8,976 nucleotides of DNA from a bacterium (GTDB lineage: Bacteria; Blakebacterota; Blakebacteria; Blakebacterales; Blakebacteraceae), in NCBI GenBank assembly GCA_025774205.1, contig JALGWK010000121.1, positions 955-9,930 on the forward strand, written 5' to 3'. The position numbers and the translations under genes were made by a program. Each line of letters opens with the position of its first letter. Within the stretch, counting starts at the first letter, position 1. Under the pieces are notes generated by a model that worked only from the letters and a program-made list of their open reading frames with translations, was not told the origin of the DNA and made no database searches. Shown one piece after another: positions 1 through 6,913 of the stretch.

Positions 1-1413
1 GGGGCTGCTGGAGGCGGCACCGACTGGGCCCGGCAGATGGGAATCAACTACCTCGGTGCCGACCTGCGTCTCGGACTCTCGAGCAATCTCATCCTCGACA
101 TGACGGTGAACCCCGATTTCGGCCACATCGAGGCGGACCAGGAACAGATCAACCTGACCCCCTACGAACTCTTTTTCGAGGAGAAGCGGCCCTTCTTTCT
201 TGAGGGACAGCGCATCTTCGAGATGCCGATCAACCTCTTCTACTCCCGCCGGATCTACAACCCGATCGGCGGGGCGAAACTGACGGGACAGATCGGTTCG
301 ACCCAGGTCGGCCTGGTCACCGCCTACAACGAACCGCTCGGTTCAGATGACCCGTTCCCCTATGCCATGCAGTCGGCCCTGCGGCTGAAGCAGAACCTCG
401 GCAGTTCCTATATCGGGGCGATGATGACGAGCCAGGAAATGCCGGCCCAGTCAAGGACCGGGCACGATTCGGGCTATCACCGGAATATCGGTTTCGATTT
501 CGACTACAAGCCATCCGACCGGATCTCGGTCACCGGACAGATCGCGACCTACGCATCACCCGAGGCCGGGAGTCGGAAGAGCGCCTACGTGCTGGCGGCC
601 GCATACACCAGCCGGAGCCTGATCTCGACCCTCGCCCTGATCGATGTTCAGCGCGACTTCGAAGCCCACCTGGGCTTCGTGCCGCGCCAGAATCAGCTGC
701 TGATCGAACCGTTCATCGGCTACCGGCATGAAGCCGACTGGGGCCGGATCAAGTGGATCACCCCGAACGTCAGGGTTCTGCGGTTCCAGAACAGCACCAC
801 CGGTGAACTGGTGGAGCAGAGGATCGGTCCCGGGGTGAGTGTCCAGATGCGGAACAACTCCAGTTTCAATTTCGATGCCTGGATCTGGGATGTCCGGCGG
901 AACGGCATCACCTACCCAGGCACCAATTTCGCCATCAGCTGGAACGCGAACCAGTCAGGTGCATTGAACGGCTACGGGGGGATCGATGTGGGTGACGGCT
1001 TCGACTACGGGGATGATCGGGTTGTAGATGATTACGCGGGATGGGGTGGAGTCACCTGGCGACCGACGATGCGTGCCTCGATCTCTTTAAGCGGTCAATA
1101 CATTCAACGCAACGCCATCAATGCCGGCGTGGTCGACGACTATACCATCGGTTCGCTGAGAGGGAGCTACCAGTTCACCCGGGAGCTGTTCGGACGGATA
1201 TACCTGCAGCGTCGACTCGATCACACCGGCCAGGACGTCGGGATCGGATCGAAGCGCCGACGGATGATCATGAACGCTCTCCTTGGCTATGAAGTCGGTC
1301 CGGGGAGCGTGATCTACCTGGCTTACAACCATTACGACCTGGGAAGCATCCCGGATGTGGGAGAGCCCGATCGGGTCCTCTTCCTGAAGGTGGCCCGGCT
1401 CTTCGCCTTCTGA
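1..1413 (+). CDS. DUF5916 family outer-membrane protein, C-terminal part (5' end outside window)
   Basis: The frame is open from base 1, so the gene is cut by the window edge. About 470 residues are visible. Near the start is the hallmark of DUF5916 proteins: DMTVNPDFGHIEAD followed by NLTPYELFFEEKRPFFLEG. In full-length members this follows a signal peptide and an N-terminal carbohydrate-binding family 9-like domain, which would lie upstream of the window. The rest alternates short amphipathic strands with Gly/Asn/Tyr-rich turns and ends VLFLKVARLFAF. A C-terminal phenylalanine is typical of outer-membrane beta-barrels inserted by the BAM complex. The family is found in Gram-negative bacteria and its function is not established; transport or surface binding has been suggested. 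ATG 37 is only an internal methionine, because the conserved region already runs across it. The next gene starts 133 nt downstream on the same strand. Family assignment is firm, function unknown. Confidence 0.88.
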   Translation, partial: GAAGGGTDWARQMGINYLGADLRLGLSSNLILDMTVNPDFGHIEADQEQINLTPYELFFEEKRPFFLEGQRIFEMPINLFYSRRIYNPIGGAKLTGQIGSTQVGLVTAYNEPLGSDDPFPYAMQSALRLKQNLGSSYIGAMMTSQEMPAQSRTGHDSGYHRNIGFDFDYKPSDRISVTGQIATYASPEAGSRKSAYVLAAAYTSRSLISTLALIDVQRDFEAHLGFVPRQNQLLIEPFIGYRHEADWGRIKWITPNVRVLRFQNSTTGELVEQRIGPGVSVQMRNNSSFNFDAWIWDVRRNGITYPGTNFAISWNANQSGALNGYGGIDVGDGFDYGDDRVVDDYAGWGGVTWRPTMRASISLSGQYIQRNAINAGVVDDYTIGSLRGSYQFTRELFGRIYLQRRLDHTGQDVGIGSKRRRMIMNALLGYEVGPGSVIYLAYNHYDLGSIPDVGEPDRVLFLKVARLFAF

Positions 1414-1465
1414 CCCGGGCTGAACGATTGGTGTCCTGCTCTGTCACCCCACAGCAGAGCCGGAC

Positions 1466-1495
1466 TTGTCACGGTCGGGACGCTACCGCTACACT
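1466..1495 (+). promoter_or_regulatory. possible sigma70-type promoter of the racemase gene
   Basis: TTGTCA (1466-1471) and TACACT (1490-1495) are separated by 18 nt. They match the -35 and -10 consensus at 5/6 and 4/6 positions. Transcription would begin near 1502, leaving a leader of about 45 nt before ATG 1547. This is pattern matching only, and matches of this quality also occur by chance. It fits the choice of ATG 1547, since the in-frame TTG at 1466 would lie inside the -35 box. Confidence 0.3.
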
Positions 1496-1546
1496 GGCGG
1501 CGTTCCGGCCCTCTGGCAACAACCTCCTCTGGGGAACCTGCCCGGC

Positions 1547-2266
1547 ATGTTGATCGTCACTCGCAAAACTGACAGAAAGATCGTCGGCATCATCGGCGGG
1601 ATGGGGCCGGAGGCAACCGCTGATTTCTACATGAGACTGGTGAAGCGGACTCCGGCCGATCGGGACCAGGCCCACCTCCACGTGGTGATGGACGGGAATC
1701 CGGCCATACCCGATCGCACCGAGTCATTCCTCAATGAAAGCGACGCCACCATGGAGGCCGTGGTGGAATCGGCCCTCAGGCTTGAAGGGATGGGAGCCGG
1801 TATCCTGGTCATGCCGTGCAACAGCGCCCACATCTGGTTCGACGGGATCGTCTCCCGGCTGTCGGTTCCTCTGCTGAACATGGTCGAGGAGGTGTTTTCA
1901 GCCGTCAGGAAAGCGGATCTGCGAACGGTCGGCCTGCTGGCGACGGCCGGTACCGTGCGTTCAGGCCTCTATGAACGGTATGCCGGTGAGGTGAACCTGC
2001 TGGTTCCTGCGGATGATGAGCGTGAACGGATCCACGAGGCTGTCTATGCGGTCAAGGCCGGTATCGGACCCGGAGAGGCCAGGGGGGGGAAAGACGTGCT
2101 GTTGGAGGTTGTCGCCGGTTACCGGGAACAGGGCGCGGAGGGTGTGATCCTCGGTTGTACCGAGATCCCCCTCCTGATCTGTCAGGCGGACCTGCCCGGT
2201 TTTCCGGTATTCGATTCCACCGACATCCTGGTGGACGCGACCCTGCGTGAGGCCCTACCCCGGTAG
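1547..2266 (+). CDS. aspartate/glutamate racemase family protein
   Basis: A 239-residue cytoplasmic enzyme of the Asp/Glu racemase superfamily, which interconverts L- and D-amino acids without a cofactor using two cysteines. Both are present in classic context: MPCNSAH (Cys91) and GCTEIPLL (Cys204). The N-terminus KIVGIIGGMGPEAT (residues 11-24) is the usual opening of aspartate racemases, and the length fits that family. Start choice: ATG 1547 has a GGGGAA stretch (1531-1536) 10 nt upstream. It also places the GIIGGMG strand near the N-terminus as in relatives. An upstream in-frame TTG (1466) would add 27 residues unlike the family. Aspartate is the likeliest substrate, but other amino acids or hydantoin-type substrates cannot be excluded. 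D-aspartate or D-glutamate is used in peptidoglycan by some bacteria. The gene converges on the aminotransferase gene across a short repeat array. Confidence 0.9.
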   Translation: MLIVTRKTDRKIVGIIGGMGPEATADFYMRLVKRTPADRDQAHLHVVMDGNPAIPDRTESFLNESDATMEAVVESALRLEGMGAGILVMPCNSAHIWFDGIVSRLSVPLLNMVEEVFSAVRKADLRTVGLLATAGTVRSGLYERYAGEVNLLVPADDERERIHEAVYAVKAGIGPGEARGGKDVLLEVVAGYREQGAEGVILGCTEIPLLICQADLPGFPVFDSTDILVDATLREALPR

Positions 2267-2376
2267 CGCCGGTTTCGGTCCACAGTCCCCTGTAATTCAG
2301 GAAACGCCGGTTTCGGTCCACAGTCCCCTGTAATTCAGGAAACGCCGGCTCCGGTCCGCAGTCCCCTGTACTTCAG
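2267..2376. repeat. 38-bp tandem repeat, about 2.9 copies, between convergent genes
   Basis: Units run 2267-2304, 2305-2342 and a partial third at 2343-2376. The first two are identical. The third matches 30 of 34 bases and loses the final four. The array starts at the base after the racemase stop codon and ends 13 nt before the stop of the opposing aminotransferase gene. Each unit contains ACAG-TCCC-CTGT (2282-2293 in unit 1), able to form a small hairpin. CCGGTTTC of one unit can pair with GAAA..CCGG at the junction with the next, leaving a two-base bulge. No T-run follows, so it is not a textbook terminator, although it sits where a bidirectional one would be useful. There are no spacers, so it is not CRISPR. 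A REP-like or simple minisatellite origin is possible. Confidence 0.85.
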
Positions 2377-2389
2377 TGTGCCCTCAGGA

Positions 2390-3424
2390 TCAGAGGACCT
2401 CGATCCAGCCGTAGGGATCGTCGCGTTCCTCCCTGATGATCCCGTTCAGTCCGTTGTAGAGAGCGAGGGTCTTCTCGCCGACCTCGCCGCCGCAGAATTC
2501 CCTCTTCCGGTCGTGATGGATCATCGAGAGGATGGGAGTGATCACCGCGGCGGTGCCTGAACAGAACGCCTCGTCGGCCTCGAAGATCTCCTCGACCGCG
2601 ACCGGCCGCTCCTCGACGGTGTAGCCGAACTCGGTCGCCGCCATCTCGCAGATTGATTTCCGGGTGATGCCCGGCAGGATCGAGCCGTCGAGTTCGGGCG
2701 TTGCCAGTACATCCCCCTTGATGAGGAAGAAGTTCGCCGCTCCCACCTCCTCCAGGAAACGCTGCTCCCTGGCGTCGGTGTACACGACCTCCGCGAAGCC
2801 ATTCGCCTTGGCCAGCGAACCGGGGAGCATCCCGCCGGCGTAGTTGCCGATCGCCTTCACGCCGCCGGTGCCGAACTGGGGGGCGCGGTGGAACTCCTCG
2901 GTCACGAGCAGGTTGATCCCTGCCAGGCCTTCCTTGAAGTAGGGGCCGACCGGGGAAACGTAGATCAGGAAGGTATAGGAGGGTGCCGGCTTGACGCCGA
3001 GCACCGGACCCGATCCGAACACCAGCGGACGCAGGTAGAGAGCGCCCTTGTCGACCGGGGGCACGTAATCGAGGTTATCCCGGACCACCATCCGGATAGC
3101 GTCCACGAAGAGGTTCTCAGGCACCTCCGGCATGCAGAGTCGGCGGCAGCCGGTATTGGCGCGTCTGGCGTTCTCCACCGGGCGGAAGAGGACGATGTTG
3201 TCCTTCACGGTCCGGTACGCCTTCATCCCTTCGAAGAGTCCCTGACCGTAGTTGATGACGCAGGCCGCGGGGGAGATGGTGATATCTCCATAGGGTACCA
3301 ATCCCTGCGGAGTCCATGTTCCGCCCTCGGGGCATTCAGCGATGTACATCGATCTGGTCGGTGTGACTGAAAAGGTAAGCTCGTCCCAGTTGATCGCCGC
3401 GGGGTCCTTCAGTTCGGTCTCCAT
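2390..3424 (-). CDS. ilvE: branched-chain amino acid aminotransferase (class IV, PLP-dependent)
   Basis: A 344-residue fold-type IV aminotransferase. This family reversibly moves the amino group between leucine, isoleucine or valine and 2-oxoglutarate, the last step of branched-chain amino acid synthesis and the first of their breakdown. The PLP-binding lysine is Lys190 in GTGGVKAIGNYAG. Other family marks are QGLFEGMKAYR (61-71), RPVENARRAN (81-90), EEVGAANFF (225-233) and FCSGTAAVITPI (287-298). Length, the long N-terminal section and the GGVKxxGNYA context fit the BCAT type II group (the eukaryote-like branch) rather than the roughly 300-residue E. coli type. ATG 3424 is preceded by GAAAGGG about 7 nt upstream. 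The gene follows the Lon-like gene by 25 nt and is probably cotranscribed with it. Only one cysteine of the CxxC redox motif of human BCATs is seen. The symbol is given by family; the substrate is inferred. Confidence 0.94.
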   Translation of the reverse strand: METELKDPAAINWDELTFSVTPTRSMYIAECPEGGTWTPQGLVPYGDITISPAACVINYGQGLFEGMKAYRTVKDNIVLFRPVENARRANTGCRRLCMPEVPENLFVDAIRMVVRDNLDYVPPVDKGALYLRPLVFGSGPVLGVKPAPSYTFLIYVSPVGPYFKEGLAGINLLVTEEFHRAPQFGTGGVKAIGNYAGGMLPGSLAKANGFAEVVYTDAREQRFLEEVGAANFFLIKGDVLATPELDGSILPGITRKSICEMAATEFGYTVEERPVAVEEIFEADEAFCSGTAAVITPILSMIHHDRKREFCGGEVGEKTLALYNGLNGIIREERDDPYGWIEVL

Positions 3425-3449
3425 GATCAGCCCTTTCAGATGAGTCGTC

Positions 3450-5887
3450 TCAAATGTCCGAAAGCATTCCCTTCCCGTTTCCGTTGCCTGAGGCCTCCTT
3501 CATGCTACGGAACAGGAACTCAAGGTGTTCCGCAACCCGGTGGTTGAGGGATCCCTCCGGCCAGGTTCCATCCTCCAGTTGCTCTCCTGCTTCAATCCCG
3601 GTAAGGAGTGCGATCCCCTGATCGATATGTTCGATCGGGTAGATACTGAACTGACCGGCTTCCACCGCTTCGATCACCTCATCCTTCAGCTGGAGGTTCC
3701 GGACGTTCGAGGCGGGGATCATCACCCCCTGGGTGCCCGTGAGGCCCTTCAGCCGGCAGGTGTGGAACCACCCCTCGATCTTCTGGTTCACGCCGCCGAT
3801 GGCCTGCACCTCGCCGAGCTGATTTACCGAACCGGTCACCGCCAGGTCCTGGCGGAGGGGAACCCGCGCCAGAGCCGACAGGAGGCAGTAGAGTTCGGTC
3901 GAGGAGGCGGAATCGCCGTCGATACCACCGTAAAGCTGTTCGAAGGTCAGGCTCGCTGAGAAGGAGAGAGGAGTCTTGCTGGCGTATCGGGAGGCGAAGA
4001 ATCCCTGCAGGATCAGCACTCCCTTGTTGTGCAGGTTACCCGCCAGTTCGGTGTCGCGATCGATCTGGATGATCCCCGCCTTGCCGGCGTAGACCCGGGC
4101 TGTAAGCCGGGAGGGCTTTCCGAAGTCATAATCACCAAAACCGAGAACCGCCAGTCCGTTGATCTGACCTTCCATACTCCCTTCGGTATCCACCAGCACC
4201 GTACCCTCGGTGATCATCTCCTGGAGCCGTTCCTCGATCCGGTTCGACCGGTAGACTTTCTCCCCGATCGCCTGGACGACGTGTTCGCTGGTAACGATGT
4301 CGGAGTCGTTCTGCTGAGCCCAGTAATCGGCTTCGCGAAGGAGATCGGCGATCTCCACGAAGCGGGTGGAGAGTTTGCCCTGGTCGGCCACGATCCGGCC
4401 GCCATGCTCAACGATCCGCGCCATGGCCGAGCGATGGAAGGGGAGGAGATTCTCTTCTCTGGCGAGGGAGGTGATAAAGCCGGCGTAAGCCTGAACCGTG
4501 TGGTCATCATGATCCATGATGAGCCCGAAATCCGCCTTTACCTTGAACAGCTTGCTGAAATCCTCTTCCTGGTCGTACAGGAGCATCCCCAGCCTTGGTG
4601 AGCCGATCATGATGACCTTCACGTCGATCGGGACCGCTTCCGGTTTCAGACCCTGGGTCTGGACCATCCGGAACTGGTCGTTCAGGTCTTCGAGTCTTAT
4701 CTCGTGGGTCTGCAGGGATCGTTTGAGCGCCTCCCAGGCGCCCGGGTTCCTCAGGACATCGAGGGCCTGGACCACGAGATAACCGCCGTTGGCCTGGTGG
4801 AGGGCACCGCCCTTGATCATCGTGTAATCGGTGGTCATGGTGCCCATGCTGGCCCGGTACTCCATCCGCCCGACCAGGTTGTAGAAAGAAGGGTTCGACT
4901 CCCAGATGACCGGTGCCCCTTCCTGTCCGCAATTATCCACGAGGACGTTCACACCATACCGGAGCAGGGTATCTGTTTCCCTCGGCATCTTCATGCCCGG
5001 GAAGGGCATCTGCTGCTCTTCCTCTTCATCCTTGAAGTCCTCAAGGTGCGTGAGGACATCCTCTTTCAGGTCCTCGAGGTAGTCGATGACAGGCTTGTGA
5101 TTCTCGAAGGCCTCCTTCACCTCGTCGATCGCGTGCGTCACGGGCATCGCCGCGATGATACGCTCAAGATCGCGCAGTTTCTGTTTGGCGCTCTTCTCCA
5201 GGTCCCTGACCTGCCGGGTGATGTCGCGCATCACCTTCTGGAGGTCTTCCTGCTTCTGCTCCAGATCGGATCGGTCTTCCTCGTTCAGGTCTTCCCATTC
5301 CTGGGATGACATCGGCTTACCGTCCTTGACCGGCAGGGTCATGATGCCGCCGCCCGACTGTTCAACCGTGAAACCGCGGTCCTCGGCTTCCGCTTTGAAG
5401 GCGTTGAACAGTTCATCCCGCTTCTCGGACAGGTCCTTGACAAGGTGAGCCCGCCGCTCCTCGTATACCGGTCCTTCGAAGGCCTTCGGGATCTCGTCCT
5501 TCAGTTCCTCAACCAGGTCTTCCACAGCTCTCTTGAATTCACATCCCATTCCGGCCGGCAGCCGGAGGGCCCGGGGGGAGTCGGGCTGGGCGAAGTTATG
5601 GACGTAGCACCAGTCTTCAGGGGTGGGACGTTCAGCCGCGGTTCTGTTCACCGCGATCTTGATGGAGGTCTTCCGGCCCGTGCCGGGCTCACCCGCCACG
5701 AAGAGGTTGTATCCGTCGGCCGAGACTCCGAGCGCGAATTCGATCGATTTCGCCGCTCTCGGCTGTCCGGCTGTCCGATCATGACGATCTCTGATTCCAT
5801 CTCGGCAGTGGATTCGGTGGGGAAGACCGCGGGATCACAGTGGGTACGCAGTCGGTCAGGTGTCAGGGCAACCGGCTGGTCTGGCAT
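3450..5887 (-). CDS. AAA_32/Lon-like ATP-dependent protease, frameshifted by an 8-bp duplication
   Basis: Continuous translation runs from a GTG at 5699 to the stop at 3450 (749 residues), but the true start is ATG 5887, with AAGGA 7 nt upstream. The first 40 residues end EIVMIGQP. The long frame then carries RAAKSIEFALG, GYNLFVAGEPG and on. A duplicated 8-mer at 5761-5776 separates the frames, and deleting one copy gives 809 residues, the usual size. In restored numbering the domains are: P-loop GEPGTGRKT (63-71, Arg at the usual Lys position), a charged helical/coiled-coil insert (about 115-285), the rest of the AAA domain including GGYLVV and WEALKRSL (about 365-390), then the C-terminal Lon protease domain. 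The Ser-Lys dyad is Ser657 (DGDSAS) and Lys700 (IGGVNQK), 43 residues apart as in E. coli Lon. Relatives include E. coli YcbZ. No transmembrane segment is seen. Predicted role: cytoplasmic ATP-dependent degradation of regulatory or damaged proteins. As sequenced it is probably inactive, unless the duplication is an artefact or reverts. Confidence 0.88.
5648..5887 (-). pseudogene. 5' fragment of the frameshifted Lon-like gene
   Basis: This is the product actually read from ATG 5887: 79 residues. Residues 1-40 are genuine Lon-like N-terminus (LTPDRLRTHCDP is the usual short helix before the AAA domain of this family, then VMIGQP). Residues after 40 (DSRERRNRSNSRSE and on) are out-of-frame, low-complexity Arg/Ser sequence ending at 5648. 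The fragment would have no P-loop and no protease domain. It is listed separately because it overlaps the 3' frame and could be mistaken for an independent small gene. Confidence 0.8.
5761..5776 (-). repeat. 8-bp perfect tandem duplication (GGACAGCC x2) causing a frameshift
   Basis: On the minus strand the octamer GGACAGCC occurs twice in immediate succession. Eight is not a multiple of three, so the reading frame shifts. The residues Gly-Gln-Pro are encoded by the first copy in the upstream frame and again by the second copy in the downstream frame, the footprint of a duplication inside a coding motif. Collapsing it restores IGQPRAAKSIEF. Confidence 0.9.
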
Positions 5888-5906
5888 GCGAAGATCCTTG
5901 CTGAAG

Positions 5907-5929: not shown

Positions 5930-6913
5930 TTACCGGTCCCGGCTCAACTCTTCGAGCATTCTCCGGGCACTCTCCTTAATTTCTTCTCCGTCAGCCCAGA
6001 TGATCGCCTGCTGGAAGGCCCGCCGGGCATTGGTTGTCTGATTCCGTTTCATATAGGCGAATCCGAGATTGAAATGCGCCTCGGCGTAACCGGAATTGAT
6101 GCTGATAGCCCGTTCGTACTGTTCGATGGCCCGGCGGGTATAATTCTTGGAAAAGAGGGCATTGCCCAGGAGATAGTAGGCGCGTTCTTCCCGGGGATGG
6201 GTGTCGATGTACAACCGGTACGACCGCTCCGCCTCATCGATCCGGTCGAGTTCGATGAGCGCAAGCCCCAGCTCGAAATGAGCGTTGGTATACCCCGGAT
6301 CGATGGTGAGGGCCCGTCTCAATTCTGTCGCGCCTCGCTGGAACTGGCCCCGGTCCACGTAGATCTTGCCCATGGCGTGCCGGATAGCAGGATCGTCGGG
6401 ATTCATGATCGCTGCCATCTGCCAGTAGGAGAGGGCCTCGTCCCAGTCGTCGGCGTGTTCGGCTGCCTCCGCGAGGAGCTTGTAGATGATCGCCTCGCGC
6501 GGCATCTCAACGATCAGGATGTCGAGGTTCACCCGGGCGTTCCGCCACATCCCTTTCTCAACCAGGAGCCTGACGAGCGCGAGCCGGGTTTGGCTGAGTG
6601 TCTGATCGGTATCGAGGATTACCTGGTATCGATTGATAGCCTCATCGATGAAACCGCGACTCTCCTGGATCTCGGCGATCTTCAGCTGGACCTGCAGGTT
6701 GTCCGGTTCTTCGTTGAGCACCTTGGTATAGGCGCTGACCGCCTGCGAGATATTGCCCGCCGCGATCAGGCGGTCACCCTTCTGCTCGTACTCATCGGGA
6801 GTGAGACTGAGGTTGCAGCCCTGGAGCAGCATCAGGCCCGCCAGCAGGAGGACCGGCAGCCCCCATCCGGGTCCCCGGTTGTCGTTTCGGATTCTCAGGC
6901 AAAGTTCAGGCAT
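5930..6913 (-). CDS. tetratricopeptide-repeat lipoprotein
   Basis: A 327-residue protein. An Arg-containing N-terminus, a hydrophobic stretch (about 18-30) and LLQGC (Cys33) form a lipoprotein signal peptide, so the mature protein is probably anchored in the inner or outer membrane. From residue 41 to the end there are about eight consecutive TPR units of 33-35 residues, with consensus A/G and Pro positions (for example AHFELGLALIELDRIDEAERSY, then AHFNLGFAYMKRNQ). TPR solenoids bind partner proteins. In lipoproteins they often serve envelope assembly complexes, but no specific partner is identifiable here. ATG 6913 is the only reasonable start, since an in-frame stop lies 6 nt upstream. There is no Shine-Dalgarno at normal spacing, the nearest AAGG being about 15 nt away. 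It is 65 nt from the preceding PAS-protein gene and 42 nt from the Lon-like gene. Confidence 0.9.
   Translation of the reverse strand: MPELCLRIRNDNRGPGWGLPVLLLAGLMLLQGCNLSLTPDEYEQKGDRLIAAGNISQAVSAYTKVLNEEPDNLQVQLKIAEIQESRGFIDEAINRYQVILDTDQTLSQTRLALVRLLVEKGMWRNARVNLDILIVEMPREAIIYKLLAEAAEHADDWDEALSYWQMAAIMNPDDPAIRHAMGKIYVDRGQFQRGATELRRALTIDPGYTNAHFELGLALIELDRIDEAERSYRLYIDTHPREERAYYLLGNALFSKNYTRRAIEQYERAISINSGYAEAHFNLGFAYMKRNQTTNARRAFQQAIIWADGEEIKESARRMLEELSRDR

Follow-up and report, generated by a model that had tools for sequence, protein, structure and literature searches.

The locus raises the question of how the reading frame of a Lon-family protease gene came to be interrupted at an exact 8-bp repeat, and whether the interruption belongs to the organism, to a genetic switch or to the assembly. 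We analysed a window of 8,976 bp (the whole stretch of DNA under study, lying in contig C376 of genome G000), which comes from a MAG of 3.09 Mb in 527 contigs with 85.9% completeness. The phylum comparison set consisted of this genome and three others, among them the only congener, G001 (83% identity; JALGVQ01, isolate Meg19_1012_Bin_119, sampling series Meg19_1012, Guaymas Basin), and a member of the same family, G002 (69% identity).

The octamer duplication and the interrupted gene

On the minus strand, GGACAGCC is present twice head-to-tail at 5776-5761, at the exact point of the frame change, and the first-pass annotation had placed both copies correctly. The order along this strand is ...GTCATGATC GGACAGCC GGACAGCC GAGAGCGGCG..., period-8 identity extends over 18 bases (5760-5777, Tandem Repeats Finder), and a search across the window found no occurrence of the octamer beyond these two. 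The upstream frame opens with ATG 5887, reads MPDQ...VMIGQP and is then out of frame until TGA 5650-5648. The downstream frame, which reads GQPRAAKSIEFALG..., is open from before copy 2 to 3450, and its earliest ATG, GTG or TTG codon is GTG 5699, giving a product of 749 residues. The features of the locus, all on the minus strand, are as follows.

5930 to 6913, minus strand: TPR-repeat lipoprotein-like gene, the upstream neighbour in this genome, in G001 and in G002
5895 to 5899, minus strand: Shine-Dalgarno-like AAGGA, 7 nt 5' of ATG 5887, conserved in G001 by alignment
5648 to 5887, minus strand: ORF of the 5' fragment, 79 codons, from the true LonC-like start through the duplication and then out of frame
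5769 to 5776, minus strand: GGACAGCC copy 1, read GGA CAG CC. in the upstream frame
5761 to 5768, minus strand: GGACAGCC copy 2, read GGA CAG CC. in the downstream frame, absent from G001 and G002
5728 to 5762, minus strand: imperfect inverted repeat CCGAGAGCGG...TTCGCGCTCGG, adjoining the duplication
5700 to 5709, minus strand: CAACCTCTTC, ten bases absent from G001 by alignment (L003/L032, contig C83)
3450 to 5699, minus strand: 3' ORF from GTG 5699, 749 undamaged codons, with a P-loop-like segment, LonC helical domain, AAA_32, LonB_AAA-LID and Lon_C protease domain
5664 to 5693, minus strand: Walker A-like GEPGTGRKTS, with Arg where Lys is usual
3909 to 3911, minus strand: codon of the catalytic Ser (Ser657 in 809-residue numbering, in GDSAS)
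3780 to 3782, minus strand: codon of the catalytic Lys (Lys700)
2390 to 3424, minus strand: branched-chain amino acid aminotransferase (ilvE type II), the downstream neighbour here and in G001

The intact length of 809 residues, the positions Ser657 and Lys700 and the 749 undamaged residues had also been given by that annotation, and they are correct in the numbering of an unbroken homologue (37 + 772 residues); the G002 protein likewise has 809 residues.

Four Pfam families (PF20437, PF13654, PF20436 and PF05362; LonC helical, LonB-like AAA and Lon_C) scored over their cut-offs on one chain, and the best solved-structure match was MtaLonC (4fwd and others, E 2e-93, over two stretches). Both LonC-specific insertions are present, CRLKGLTG for CX3GLX(G/E) and VIEAV for phi-X2-A-phi (consensus from PMC3391209), and Walker B is degenerate (GGYLVVQALD, with the acidic pair absent). 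Because of these features and the Walker A Arg, we assign the broken gene from its sequence as LonC-like. The Ser-Lys dyad is invariant in 17 aligned homologues. Canonical LonA identity was rejected, since the NCBIfam lon equivalog TIGR00763 scored 23 bits against a cut-off of 608; the earlier description of a broken Lon-family gene stands, for a LonC-like protein and probably not an ATP-dependent Lon. The LonC enzymes characterised so far degrade unfolded proteins and have no ATPase activity (PMC3391209). We take the gene to be an ordinary chromosomal one. The viral contigs that we searched held no copy of the locus, its own genome held no other, and the named genomes returned only the same sister assembly (L032). 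It is the sole convincing Lon_C gene found in the G000 assembly. Across the four phylum genomes (G000-G003, all incomplete assemblies), canonical LonA was found in none, and the LonC-like gene was the only Lon_C match above ~30 bits.

Elsewhere in the window, a 38-bp unit stands in three head-to-tail copies between two convergent genes (2262-2375), the other copies being 95% and 84% like the first, and the racemase gene at 1466-2266 scores over the NCBIfam cut-off for cysteate racemase CuyB. A frame switch in the racemase region was rejected as a coding break, being intergenic.

Comparison with relatives

Taken as sequence alone, exact tandem octamers are no rarer than expected by chance; G000 has 3 in 362 kb, where a composition-matched shuffle gave 10, and G001 has 10 in 670 kb, where shuffling gave 20. 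The duplication gains its meaning from the frame break and from the relatives G001 and G002, in which the site carries a single copy. In G002 the one-copy site lies in an unbroken 809-residue protein. The one-copy site of G001 lies in a gene with a frame break of its own, a 10-bp deletion that starts 51 bp downstream of the G000 duplication, just before the P-loop, and creates a TAG in the upstream frame, after which 753 open codons remain. The breaks in the two species are thus different events, 51 bp apart. At the other homologous loci the frame was unbroken in 34 of 34, and the P-loop was preceded by 56 codons or more; a few of these loci are closely related to one another, and the independent lineages are fewer. 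Since these 34 loci are unbroken and both G001 and G002 have one copy, the two-copy state is, on this sequence comparison, private and derived, in agreement with the earlier view that one copy is ancestral; a two-copy layout with a working frame switch was found in none of the homologues.

This distribution bears on the suggestion, made in the first-pass annotation, that slipped-strand mispairing might turn the protease on and off by gain and loss of the octamer. An exact two-copy tandem of this size can in principle revert by slippage, and reversible microhomology-mediated tandem duplications are known within a coding gene, ssp1 of fission yeast (review PMC13207564). However, the repeat is private to this assembly and has only two copies, the site in G001 and G002 holds no repeat tract and so no conserved switch, and the sister gene is broken by an unrelated loss of 10 bp, which slippage has no means of undoing. 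That a new duplication may happen to be reversible does not make it an evolved switch, and because the near relatives lack the repeat and the sister break is of another kind, we consider phase variation quite improbable.

We compared substitution rates between G000 and G001. The 749-codon part gave a dS of 1.10, a dN of 0.097 and an omega of 0.089, and 36 of 39 residues were identical in the 39-codon N-terminal part, which showed no excess of amino-acid change relative to G002 in either lineage. Purifying selection on the 749-codon part is strong, and the N-terminal piece is conserved to the same degree. Since neither half has decayed, both breaks are either recent relative to the split of the two species or not real; the recency proposed earlier is borne out to this extent. 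The gene start and ribosome-binding region (5820-5906) are near-identical in the two genomes, with 59 of 60 bases the same at 5820-5879 against ~80% elsewhere and a synonymous divergence of 0.25 against 1.10, and a regulatory or mRNA-level constraint on the gene start is possible.

To place the two breaks among others, we surveyed about 45-47 kb of aligned DNA (~45 genes) from G000 and G001. Three interior coding frame breaks were found in G000, of 8-26 bp and none of 1-2 bp: the octamer duplication, a 26-bp loss in a methyltransferase gene (L060 ~3587, against L145) and an 11-bp loss in a CHASE2/guanylate-cyclase gene (L158 ~13087, against L180). In G001 the 10-bp deletion in the LonC-like gene was the only one. 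Most of the gene-end events first flagged in the survey proved to be misassigned starts or antisense ORFs. As ~42 kb contained no further G001 break, the probability that one lies no more than 60 bp from the G000 duplication is ~1% by a rule-of-three bound, a post hoc estimate. So small a chance gives a hint of a hotspot, of relaxed selection or of an assembly difficulty common to both genomes, and is not proof of any of them.

Consequences of the break for the protein

A frameshift at the duplication would stop translation of the main ORF after ~39 correct residues. We looked for a Shine-Dalgarno-like sequence at GTG 5699 and found none in G000 or G001. In the AlphaFold model of an intact homologue (L034, mean pLDDT 83), a helix spans 38-49 and a strand 57-60. 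The GTG corresponds to residue 59 there, and a product started from it would lose the helix and most of the strand before the P-loop, which are the first helix and strand of the AAA-like domain; the family-invariant residues G36, Q37, R39, A40, F46, G54 and N56 also fall upstream of the GTG. As the GTG lacks a Shine-Dalgarno sequence and its product lacks the helix, the strand and the invariant residues, the assembled allele probably has little or no function.

The same evidence speaks to the idea that the N-terminal segment is dispensable or separately encoded in this genus, and that termination-reinitiation at GTG 5699 yields a short LonC beginning at the P-loop. In both congeners the break lies 5' of the same in-frame GTG and the sequence beyond it is intact, the new stop in G001 overlaps this start (TAGTG), and the 749 codons are strongly selected. 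Against it, neither species has a Shine-Dalgarno sequence at the GTG, the upstream ORF of G000 ends 51 nt past it, the N-terminal piece matches the rest in conservation, which would not be expected of a long-dispensable segment, the missing helix and strand are structured elements that contain family-invariant residues, and all 34 other loci keep the segment. We regard a short LonC of this kind as unlikely. The related proposal that the gene was split twice independently in the genus, into a short N-terminal peptide and a protease started from the same GTG by termination-reinitiation, seems to us slightly less probable again.

Programmed -1 ribosomal frameshifting could link the two frames, and the downstream part does lie in the -1 frame after the break in both species. 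However, neither species has an X XXY YYZ slippery heptamer in the shared stretch or overlap, and RNA structure near the junction is at the level of shuffled sequence (z 0.30); these two results make such frameshifting unlikely. The layouts moreover differ between G000 and G001, and none of the other homologues (34 loci) uses it. We give programmed frameshifting very little credence, the least of the readings considered.

Origin of the duplication and comparison with known systems

The reading that we favour, at about even confidence, is a real, recent and private 8-bp tandem duplication that breaks the LonC-like gene. The likely mechanism is backward slippage of the nascent strand in replication, which the two-base CG repeats on both sides of GACAGC would help; pausing at the inverted repeat that starts within copy 2 may perhaps assist. 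The inverted repeat begins in the final two bases of that copy and, as single-stranded DNA, falls in the most stable 0.1-1.6% of the contigs' 40-nt windows in G000 and G001 and in the top ~2% in G002. A role for this DNA hairpin is suggestive, its stability being modestly unusual and variable with strand and window size; at the other two G000 breaks we found no comparably strong hairpin. A local mutation hotspot, or recurrent loss in the genus, would be consistent with the breaking of the same gene end in both species.

The main competitor is an assembly artefact, in which ends or graph paths overlapping by eight bases were joined unmerged, or strain variants were collapsed, and the organism has one copy and an intact gene. 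A missed 8-base overlap at a join would yield exactly this duplication, and assembly error accounts for many of the putative pseudogenes in draft genomes (PMC11017572). The fragmented state of the MAG and the two other medium-sized frame breaks in ~45 kb, which with the duplication make three in ~45 aligned genes, count against a real mutation. The gene is otherwise intact, and its standing as the only clear Lon_C gene in the assembly makes a fixed null allele less expected. On the other side, tandem octamers show no excess in the G000 assembly, the sign of systematic joining error for which we looked, and the different break at the same gene end of the sister would need two unrelated errors ~50 bp apart. 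The annotation's exclusion of a homopolymer error as the cause is supported. We rate an artefact as a serious possibility, and the duplication would be present in cells, beyond the assembly, if the favoured reading of a real mutation is right.

A duplicated octamer in a single draft genome does not establish a switch; variation among relatives or reads would be needed. In both species of the genus that were compared, the only clear Lon-family gene is interrupted, and the two unrelated indels fall within a span of ~70 bp. If both breaks are real, they point to a mutation hotspot or to repeated loss of an ATP-independent quality-control protease; if they are not, the site is a place where assemblies fail.

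Set against known systems, the gene resembles LonC (MEROPS S16.007; MtaLonC of Meiothermus taiwanensis and TTC1975 of Thermus) in PF20437, the Ser-Lys dyad, both insertions and the degenerate Walker B. Unlike those proteins, it encodes ~809 rather than 719 residues, with a longer insertion between the Walker motifs and Arg at the Walker A Lys position, and the assembled allele is frameshifted. An isolated break in an intact, selected gene, with similar breaks in the same assembly, recalls the spurious draft-assembly pseudogenes of PMC11017572, whose error type is tied to assembler, platform and coverage, whereas the break described here is known from assembled sequence. The duplication is also like the short tandem-duplication frameshifts that arise by replication slippage or microhomology-mediated events, being an exact head-to-tail copy with matching dinucleotides at its ends that breaks the frame and is in principle revertible; it differs from them as a single snapshot in one assembly, where an assembly join gives an identical picture.
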